From Armatimonadota bacterium (GTDB taxonomy: Bacteria > Armatimonadota > Fimbriimonadia > Fimbriimonadales > Fimbriimonadaceae), in assembly GCA_020161505.1 (NCBI GenBank), contig JAIUNY010000003.1, positions 186,001 through 250,000 on the forward strand: 64,000 bases of DNA, written 5' to 3'. The position numbers and the translations under genes were made by a program. The stretch's first letter is position 1. Every line of letters starts with the position of its first letter. Positions 18,123-48,454 of the stretch are shown here, piece by piece. The notes below the pieces were generated by a model. That model saw nothing but the letters and a program-made list of their open reading frames with translations, was not told the origin of the DNA and searched no databases.

Positions 18123-18131
18123 GGGGGGGGG
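18123..18131. repeat. G9 homopolymer tract (C9 on the sense strand of the cysteine-rich gene)
   Basis: Nine consecutive G on the plus strand lie between the 3' end of the ABC transporter gene and the cysteine-rich gene's promoter. Similar 10-nt tracts occur at 35982-35991 and 47005-47014, each next to an accessory module. Such tracts are prone to slippage. Confidence 0.8.
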
Positions 18132-35981: not shown

Positions 35982-35991
35982 CCCCCCCCCC
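35982..35991. repeat. C10 homopolymer tract
   Basis: Ten consecutive C lie 18 nt after the nuoI stop and 44 nt before the next ATG, on the sense strand of the downstream secreted-protein gene. It marks the nuoI/accessory-module boundary and would be slippage-prone. Confidence 0.8.
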
Positions 35992-45459: not shown

Positions 45460-46500
45460 TCACTTTCCAGGAGGAGCAGTAAGCCAAGACTGCCCCATAT
45501 CCGTTCGGAATCCCCAGTTCTGACCACTCGTCGGATCCTGCCCTTCGACCCTGACATACGGACGGGTCTTCGACTTCTTCAAAGTCGGGCCGCTCTCAGC
45601 CCACAATTCAGCCTCCTGCTGGCTGGAAAACCCGAGTTCCTTGTAGTTGTCCTTTACCCGGCGAACCATCTCGTCTTTGAGCTCTTTTGGCCACCCATTT
45701 GACGAACCATTCATTGGCATCATTGCCAGCAGTCGAGCTGACTCACTGTTTGCCCATGTCAAGAAGTTGAGATAGGCCTCGCGCATCTTTACCCGTTGCA
45801 CTTCACGGATCTCGCCTACCTGTTTGGCGATCTCACTGTAGATCATATCAAGCCGATGTTCGCTCGTGATGTCGACAACGCTCAGGCACATCGGAAGCAT
45901 CCTATATCCGCTCCCCTCAAAGGGCGACTTCGCTCTGCGATCCGGCCCCACCGGAAGATAACTTTCGTCAGCCTGTTCATCTGCGACTTCGCTGACGCGA
46001 TCTGGTTCTTGCCGGTCACCTGATTGCCCGGAGATAGCAACATCAACCGACTTACCATTTAGTTCAAGGGTGACCGTCAGAGTTGAGGAAATCACCGCAT
46101 TAAAGTCTGGTGAGCGAGTCAGGCGATCCCCGCGGAGCCCTGCCGATTCGCTCACAAATCGCTTAAGTTCATTCAAGAGTGCTGGATCACTATTCTTATC
46201 GATCTTGAGGTCGGTCTCTCGCGCCAGCTTCTCATGTAGTTTAGCCAGCTCCTTCATCTTGTAGAGCGGGAGGTATTCCTCTGAGACTAACGCTTTCCAA
46301 CCTTTCCCACGGATAAGGTGCCAACTTTCCCCGTCGCCTTTAGATTGAAACTCCTGTGGCGATAGCCCATGAAAAGCATGGAACTCAGTGTCAATCACGG
46401 GTCTTAGACCCACGACTACCCGGAGTTCCCCAGATCCGTCATTGAGACGGATCTGGGGGTTCGTTTGCATGAGAAATGCCGTAATGAGCGTACCGATCAC
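45460..46500 (-). CDS. Secreted protein of unknown function, paralogue of the gene at 47193
   Basis: A 346-residue protein with a short hydrophobic N-terminus (IGTLITAFLMQ). The GTG at 46500 overlaps the previous stop as GTGA and is preferred to a GTG at 46515. It shares with the 47193 product the segment W-(K/Q)-A-(L/I)-VSE-(E/D)-YL-x-L-x-KMK and a C-terminal FR-x-(D/S)T...W-L/A-x-P pattern, so they are paralogues. The middle is helical and charged. No known family was recognised. Confidence 0.65.
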   Translation of the reverse strand: MIGTLITAFLMQTNPQIRLNDGSGELRVVVGLRPVIDTEFHAFHGLSPQEFQSKGDGESWHLIRGKGWKALVSEEYLPLYKMKELAKLHEKLARETDLKIDKNSDPALLNELKRFVSESAGLRGDRLTRSPDFNAVISSTLTVTLELNGKSVDVAISGQSGDRQEPDRVSEVADEQADESYLPVGPDRRAKSPFEGSGYRMLPMCLSVVDITSEHRLDMIYSEIAKQVGEIREVQRVKMREAYLNFLTWANSESARLLAMMPMNGSSNGWPKELKDEMVRRVKDNYKELGFSSQQEAELWAESGPTLKKSKTRPYVRVEGQDPTSGQNWGFRTDMGQSWLTAPPGK

Positions 46501-46991
46501 TCGGTTAAACTCCACTTGATGTAGTCAAGTTTAGGATTGACTGGCCAAACGCGTTGCCTGTATACCGAAAACGGCGGATCCACTTGGTTGTTAAAAGTCC
46601 AGGCGTCAGACTCGGTCTTTTCGGCATAGGTGAGGATAACCTGACCATACTCGCCAGGATTAAGCCACACTTCTGTGTACTGTGCTGGGTTTCCGAACCC
46701 GTTGGGGTAAGGGTTGCGTCCTGGCCCGGGCGGAACAGGGACTAACTTCGTTCCCAAAGTCCCCAAACCTACTGTCCAGGTCGGTGGATACTCCATCGCA
46801 GATCCGGACACAGTATCATTCAGTGTCGAGTAGGTGATGTAGGGCAGTCTCCAGGTACAAGGCCCCATTCCAGCTGGACCGATCGGCGTCGTGACATTCT
46901 CGGATGTTACCGACGGAAAACCTGGAGGTCTCGTCCAGTCGGACGTAGGCATCGAAAGAGCGACAAGTGTGAGTAAGAGATATGTCCCCAT
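46497..46991 (-). CDS. Secreted protein with a G-tract promoter
   Basis: A 164-residue exported protein: the signal peptide MGTYLLLTLVALSMPTSDW is followed by a Pro/Gly/Tyr-rich, beta-like mature region (VTTPIGPAGMGPCTWRLPYITYSTLND). Its end, NPKLDYIKWSLTE, faintly resembles the end of the frameshifted protein at 33251 (PQWSDFIWHTEFFP), perhaps a shared family. The start at 46991 lies 7 nt after TAGCGT. It sits between two paralogous genes and overlaps the next by GTGA. Confidence 0.6.
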   Translation of the reverse strand: MGTYLLLTLVALSMPTSDWTRPPGFPSVTSENVTTPIGPAGMGPCTWRLPYITYSTLNDTVSGSAMEYPPTWTVGLGTLGTKLVPVPPGPGRNPYPNGFGNPAQYTEVWLNPGEYGQVILTYAEKTESDAWTFNNQVDPPFSVYRQRVWPVNPKLDYIKWSLTE

Positions 46992-46998
46992 GACTAAA

Positions 46999-47029
46999 AC
47001 GCTACCCCCCCCCCGATGTTGACAGTCAA
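46999..47029 (-). promoter_or_regulatory. Promoter with a G10 tract in the -35/-10 spacer (possible phase-variable switch)
   Basis: On the minus strand, TTGACT (47024-47029) and TAGCGT (46999-47004) are separated by 19 nt, of which the ten adjacent to the -10 are all G (47005-47014). The ATG follows 7 nt after the -10. Slippage in the tract would change the spacer; loss of two G gives the optimal 17. Confidence 0.6.
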
Positions 47030-47137: not shown

Positions 47138-47174
47138 ATGGAGTACCGGAGGCGTCCTCAATCCGGTACTCCAT
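47138..47174 (-). terminator. Perfect 13-bp hairpin downstream of the gene at 47193
   Basis: ATGGAGTACCGGA (47138-47150) and TCCGGTACTCCAT (47162-47174) pair perfectly around an 11-nt loop, 18 nt after the stop. No T run follows, so termination is uncertain; an mRNA-stabilising or attenuating role is possible. Confidence 0.55.
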
Positions 47175-47192: not shown

Positions 47193-48224
47193 TCAGTAGA
47201 GTCGTTGCGCGGCGGGCAGGGCCCAGAGTTGGCTCATCATCACCGACATGCCCGAATTTGCGCCCGTGCTCCATCGGAAGTTACAGTCCAGATGTTCGAT
47301 CGGATAAACCGCAACGATCTCTGGGTCTGCATTGATGAACTCGGTGACGGTTTGGGTCGGGAACCGCTCAAGAAGCCCAGGGATTCCCGTCAAGTGCGAA
47401 CGCAACAATCCCTTGGACCGCGCGTCCAGTTCCGACACGCGCTTCGCCGCCCTCATCTTTGCCCGATCTTGGCGACCCGATTCAGAGAGCCACTCCAAGT
47501 ATGGGCTGTAAGCTGCCCCACACTCTTGAATCTGAATCTCTCGCGCTGTTTTCACTTGCGCAAAGAGTTCAACGAGATCTTGATCGGGCACCACGCTTGT
47601 GCCTTCTGCCGAGTAGACATGAAACTCTGGGGGCGAGTACGTGTTTGTCATCAGTAGGGAGCCGCCGCCTTCAGGGAGCCGAGCGACATTCGGGAAGGTG
47701 TCGAGAGCGGTGTATGGATCGAGATCTGGTTCCGGGCGTTGGTTTGGCAACGTCACCCTGACCGTCACGTCACCAAGCTTCAGAACGATTGCGGTCTGGT
47801 GAGTGAGTCGTACGGCAAAGCCAGGAGCCTCAGTGTGGTTCAGAAATGACTCGCCGAGGGATCGAACAAAGAAGTCCTTCATCTCACTCATCACAAAAGG
47901 AGAACTTTTCGAGTCAACCACCCGCCGATTTTCCGCCCGAGCTTGACGATAGAACTCAGCAAATCGCTTCATTTTGTGAAGAGCAAGGTAGTCCTCGCTG
48001 ACAATGGCTTGCCAAGTCGCCCCCTTGAAGTGATGAAAGCGTTTGCCATCAGCAAGGAGCGCAAATGAGTAGTCGTCGCGCTTCTGATACATAAATGTAT
48101 CCTGAGCCGACCAAGTCTGCGTCGTGACAACGAATTGCCGAAGAGCGGGACGCGGTGCAGGAGTTTGAGCCAGACACAAGCTGGATGCGCTCATCAGGGC
48201 AAGCGCGGAGTATGCGAATTTCAC
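47193..48224 (-). CDS. Secreted protein of unknown function, paralogue of the gene at 45460
   Basis: A 343-residue protein with a signal peptide (FAYSALALMSASSLCLAQ). The GTG at 48224 is preceded by GAGGGGAAT and is preferred over an extension to 48251. The segment WQAIVSEDYLALHKMKRFAEFY matches WKALVSEEYLPLYKMKELAKLH in the 45460 product. The central part is predicted mixed alpha/beta. No known family was recognised. First gene of the module; a hairpin separates it from the next gene, which has its own promoter. Confidence 0.65.
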   Translation of the reverse strand: MKFAYSALALMSASSLCLAQTPAPRPALRQFVVTTQTWSAQDTFMYQKRDDYSFALLADGKRFHHFKGATWQAIVSEDYLALHKMKRFAEFYRQARAENRRVVDSKSSPFVMSEMKDFFVRSLGESFLNHTEAPGFAVRLTHQTAIVLKLGDVTVRVTLPNQRPEPDLDPYTALDTFPNVARLPEGGGSLLMTNTYSPPEFHVYSAEGTSVVPDQDLVELFAQVKTAREIQIQECGAAYSPYLEWLSESGRQDRAKMRAAKRVSELDARSKGLLRSHLTGIPGLLERFPTQTVTEFINADPEIVAVYPIEHLDCNFRWSTGANSGMSVMMSQLWALPAAQRLY

Positions 48225-48454
48225 AGTGATTCCCCTCGACCACCCACCCACCAGCAGCGGATGCGTCGCAGTAAAGAGCTAACCCTGATTTCTGCCCGAA
48301 ATCGGAGTTATCTCCGGTAAATCGGACGTTTATCCAACGGCGTGGTTACGACAAAACAAAATAGCTCTTCTGGCAACCAACAGTTCCGCCGAAAACGTCC
48401 GATAATCAGAGAGACAGTGCCCTCGCACAAACACGAGGGGCTCGGACGAGGGAC

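Follow-up and report, generated by a model that had tools for sequence, protein, structure and literature searches.

Phase variation through the promoter spacer is known from a few pathogens. In porA of Neisseria meningitidis the element concerned is a poly-G tract between the -10 and the -35, for which the account in PMC7864442, citing van der Ende 1995, gives 17 nt as the optimum spacing. In the leaderless genes of Actinobacteria and Deinococcus-Thermus the start codon is preceded, at a distance of approximately 12 nt, by a TANNNT motif (PMC3160421; PMC12340547). The site analyzed here lies at 46999-47029 of the window, i.e. the whole 64,000-nucleotide stretch of Armatimonadota DNA under study. 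It is quite probably a sigma-70-type promoter that varies in phase in the manner of porA, and is predicted from sequence comparisons to drive a cassette of two secreted-protein genes, A and B.

All elements of the site read on the minus strand. The putative -35 hexamer, TTGACT (47024-47029), is repeated as TTGAC[A/T] at homologous sites, and is followed by nine spacer nucleotides outside the tract (GTCAACATC, 47023-47015) and then by a G10 homopolymer (GGGGGGGGGG, 47005-47014), which makes up the 3′ half of the spacer, adjoins the -10, and is placed alike in approximately 25 promoters of the bacterial family. The -10 hexamer, TAGCGT (46999-47004), is the most frequent -10 among the family's tract promoters, and seven nucleotides (TTTAGTC) separate it from the ATG of gene A (46991-46989). 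The first-pass annotation had placed TTGACT and TAGCGT 19 nt apart, with ten G beside the -10 and a gene start 7 nt further on, and this was exact on re-reading. TAGCGT is a poor match to the sigma-70 -10, which counts against a promoter, and a strict consensus promoter scan of 46999-47029 found none; Rfam gave no match. A palindrome that includes TTGACT, TTGACTGTCAA, was considered as an operator and rejected because other sites do not conserve it. There is no Shine-Dalgarno sequence before the ATG of gene A and the TANNNT ends 7 nt upstream, which is the leaderless TANNNT layout; from this layout the gene A mRNA is probably leaderless, with its start predicted accordingly. In the window, 5 of 46 long ORFs have TANNNT 6-7 nt before ATG against approximately 0.7 per position, a small excess.

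Gene A (46497-46991, minus) encodes a 164-aa protein with a hydrophobic N-terminal signal, which bears out the annotation's claim that the regulated gene encodes a secreted protein. What that annotation overlooked is that A is the first gene of a two-gene unit. Gene B (45460-46500, minus; approximately 346 aa, also secreted) starts with GTG and overlaps the A stop by 4 nt, and its family is found behind tract-controlled A genes. Upstream of the promoter lies a paralogue of B (47193-48251, minus; 29% identity, E 3e-18) with neither an A gene nor a tract of its own, and between the two a strong 13-bp hairpin (47138-47174, minus; z -2.8, no U run) is possibly the transcription end of the paralogue. 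Pairs of a short exported A (approximately 150 aa) and an exported B (approximately 340 aa) start at tract promoters in many species; at some tract sites A is partnered instead with a type IV pilin-like protein. The B proteins, that of the window included, form one family by phmmer and profile search. The A family is very divergent and hypervariable, with the pattern W...GS...PPW...F..L...W...P...R.R.W; 11 other A proteins cluster clearly, and that of the window matches the A profile weakly (E 0.015 among 36 proteins) and agrees with the pattern at W, GS..PPW, and R.R.W.

A search of 85 genomes with the B profile gave 34 matches in 16 genomes. Reading of the window's own genome covered the stretches around tracts and B genes. 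At 15 of the 30 B loci read, A was preceded by a run of at least 8 G or C, although eight of these 15 had been used to build the profile and hence are not independent. Among B homologues outside the profile a tract of 8 or more was ahead of A at approximately 7 of approximately 20 loci, compared with approximately 0.2 expected from genome tract density. An orphan-protein search with gene A in 60 relatives returned only itself and one very weak match, the same kind of search in GTDB contigs returned none, and Pfam and PDB sequence searches with A and B produced nothing credible. AlphaFold models were poor (pLDDT 45 for A and 59.6 for B), and Foldseek with the B model, at that pLDDT of 59.6, gave no match at E < 0.1. 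A phage origin of B was rejected, as phage records held no match. Export, divergence, and the predicted switching together suggest that A and B are exposed at the cell surface or released, and that diversifying selection acts on them.

The same architecture was found before homologous secreted-protein cassettes in many species, and the annotation's reading of the site as a promoter is supported by this. A second site in the same genome, TTGACT-N8-G11-TAGCTT (C37:17421-17451), likewise has a 19-nt spacer and stands before an exported-protein gene. A third A/B cassette, at a contig end (C19:1-1430, L212), is preceded by a sense-strand C10 and by TATACT 7 nt before the ATG, and fits both profiles (A 4.5e-11, B 8.8e-8); it has the same design with C in place of G. 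Twenty-five distinct promoters of the family consist of TTGA[C/T], 4-11 nt, G8-G17, TANNNT, and then ATG, with spacers of 15-24 nt (median approximately 18) and, in 20 of 26 listed promoters, one of them a duplicate, 6-7 nt from -10 to ATG. As the tract grows the rest of the spacer shortens (r = -0.39, permutation p = 0.03, 25 full family promoters), as would be expected of a spacer kept close to the length at which it functions. Almost every gene downstream of a tract promoter encodes a short exported protein and is coupled to a second gene whose product is also exported.

In the 64-kb window a run of G8+ was not significant, with 8 overlapping matches versus 3.9 expected from a dinucleotide shuffle; because a single run is unremarkable by this measure, significance was sought instead from comparison across the genome and phylum. 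The whole genome (3.14 Mb) is depleted in G8+ runs, with 44 overlapping matches, and its tracts number 46 of exactly G7, 8 of G8, 1 of G9, and 8 of G10-G15. The tail is heavy, since extrapolation of the G7:G8 ratio predicts approximately 0.3 tracts of G10+ against the eight seen. Three of these eight precede A/B cassettes, namely the 46999-47029 site, C37:17427, and C19:1 at a contig end. Another three (C6:223341, C22:6781, and C29:52153) fall within genes for exported proteins, in the first codons or just past the part that encodes the signal peptide, and the remaining two are at 35982 in the window, approximately 44 nt upstream of an exported-protein gene, and at the contig end C24. Two of the eight genomes of the genus have no G9+ tract, which counts against the porA-type reading, and a spacer census of the window's own genome with strict TTGACA/TANAAT found one site, too few for use.

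Across the phylum, a search of 291 Armatimonadota genomes for TTGACN{3,18}G8TANNNT gave 46 distinct sites, spread over 28 of the genomes, compared with a single match for the reversed control. The weaker TTGACN{3,18}G6TANNNT gave 24 matches versus 5 for the control in 85 genomes of the family, and TTGACN{5,14}G8 matched in 30 of 113 genomes of the order, above its reversed control; the narrower TAGCGT pattern, over all GTDB genomes, was otherwise spread across phyla at about chance level. The composite promoter layout is far from chance. Approximately half of the 46 sites lie outside the family of the window, where the -10 is often TATAAT or TACAAT and the median spacer is 16. There, three loci (L257, L259, and L262, in G281, G287, and G289) have TTGAC-N-G8/G10/G14-TATAAT or TACAAT before related genes, one of which is a confirmed DDE transposase (PF05598, PF01609), and this suggests that poly-G spacer promoters may also drive mobile elements. 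At L252-L255 (G271 and G272), poly-G spacer promoters are followed by a common leader (CTAC..ACGAGACAAGCCGCAACGTGAGTAGTTAC), a repeated regulatory region.

Tract length differs between species and between near-identical copies. Lengths across the family promoters run from 8 to 17. In one genome (G003) two tandem cassettes are almost identical in promoter and signal sequence, yet one has G9 and the other G17, for spacers of 16 and 24; in another (G179), where a pair of copies is 95.5% identical, one tract is a single base longer than the other (G9 versus G8). Phase variation by change of the spacer, as the first-pass annotation proposed, stands as the natural reading, the near-identical copies that differ in tract length being those of other genomes. 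All eight genomes of the genus encode MutS1 and MutS2, so that slippage may be infrequent and its rates modest; for the same reason we rejected the idea that the tracts stem from a lack of mismatch repair. Contig breaks at tracts were dropped as a sign of length heterogeneity because contigs of relatives end in long poly-G that is probably a product of sequencing or assembly. These runs measure 44-71 bases, some of them G67-G71, and those of G003 are at L091, L092, and L099.

Three other tracts in the genome of the window are candidate switches of a different kind. At C6:223341-223352 (L003:1501-1512) a G12 directly follows a signal peptide (..VHAQSG-G12), and this length puts the long frame behind it out of register, whereas a tract of 10 or 13 would bring it into register; the gene is a candidate for translational phase variation, apparently in the off state. 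A C10 at C22:6781-6790 (L022) lies in register in the first codons of an exported or membrane-anchored protein, and a C12 at C29:52153-52164 (L035) lies in the first codons of another such protein out of register with the ATG, and both may be further translational switches. Within the window, a sense-strand C10 at 35982-35991 is approximately 44 nt upstream of another secreted-protein gene, and a sense-strand C9 at 18123-18131, shortly upstream of a secreted-protein gene, adjoins TAACAAT directly.

In a porA-type promoter at 46999-47029, slipped-strand mispairing in replication would add or remove Gs in the tract, and the number of Gs would set the distance between -35 and -10, with 8 G giving 17 nt, 9 giving 18, 10 giving 19, and 11 giving 20. 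The change in spacing would raise or lower transcription of the translationally coupled, largely leaderless cassette of exported proteins, A and then B. With at least two further tract cassettes in the genome and many in relatives, the outcome could be a population whose cells form a mosaic in the surface or secreted proteins that they express. That the present 19-nt spacer is a weak state is plausible by analogy: under the porA rule of a 17-nt optimum, 19 nt would be sub-optimal and loss of two Gs would strengthen the promoter. For comparison, the medians of tract promoters are 18 in the family and 16 outside it.

An alternative explanation gives the tract a conserved role in regulation or structure, such as that of an operator, a G-rich protein-binding site, or a promoter-melting element, in which length matters little and there is no switch. 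The tract does adjoin the -10 at most sites, MutS is present, and in Treponema the poly-G that overlaps the -10 of tprL acts other than by spacing (PMC7864442). Against this, tract lengths vary from 8 to 17 while the flanks are otherwise conserved, spacer lengths compensate, and other long tracts of the same genome lie where the N-termini of secreted proteins are encoded, a position in which a shift of frame is the one sensible effect. We consider a conserved element of this kind unlikely.

Frame-shifting could itself be proposed for the site at 46999-47029, as translational phase variation in which the tract lies within an upstream-extended reading frame starting at TTG 47096 and slippage shifts that frame. 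The frame is indeed open from 47096 through the tract into A; however, the extended N-terminus is not signal-like and the ATG at 46991 begins a good signal sequence, and homologous sites have their ATG past the tract, with -35 and -10 boxes around the tract, so that this explanation is very improbable. Equally little credence is given to neutral slippage, by which an intergenic homopolymer varies with no selected role, or to an artefact of assembly. Homopolymers readily mutate and relatives do carry long, probably artefactual poly-G at contig ends, but neither would account for the orientation and position of the tract between TTGAC and TANNNT, at 46 versus 1 against the reversed control, or for repetition of the layout before members of a single gene family in many genomes that were assembled independently.

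A literature search joining phase variation with Armatimonadetes, Armatimonadota, or Fimbriimonas, which missed most subscription journals, found no report of the two together. The switching mechanism is already known; what appears to be new is its occurrence in this phylum, together with the cassettes and the scale, and the leaderless layout is unusual. There is perhaps an even chance that Armatimonadota carry an unreported, phylum-wide set of poly-G spacer promoters that in Fimbriimonadaceae drive hypervariable secreted cassettes, mosaic within a population, for example in evasion of phages or predators or in kin recognition. Repeated occurrence of the same design in a poorly cultured environmental phylum, before an exported family with no known relatives, points to selection for stochastic surface variation beyond the pathogens. 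The natural series of spacer lengths would allow tests of how spacing sets the strength of a leaderless promoter, and the tract cassettes provide a handle on what secreted proteins of the A/B type face.

Compared with porA, the Armatimonadota site shares a poly-G tract in the spacer between -35 and -10 and a surface or secreted protein as target. In porA changes in tract length alter the spacing, whereas at 46999-47029 switching is predicted. Unlike porA, the Armatimonadota tract adjoins the -10, a gap of 6-7 nt separates -10 and ATG in a probably leaderless layout, the host is environmental, the controlled genes are a coupled pair of undescribed secreted proteins, and there are many sites per clade. 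The likeness to tprE, tprG, tprJ, and tprL of Treponema pallidum is in a length-variable poly-G near the promoter of a surface-protein gene, but in tprL the poly-G extends into the -10, where it is unable to alter the spacing (PMC7864442), while the tract at 46999-47029 is cleanly within the spacer. Leaderless genes of Actinobacteria and Deinococcus-Thermus similarly have TANNNT next to the start codon; for these no homopolymer has been described, and to that layout the Armatimonadota promoter adds a -35 and a G-tract spacer.
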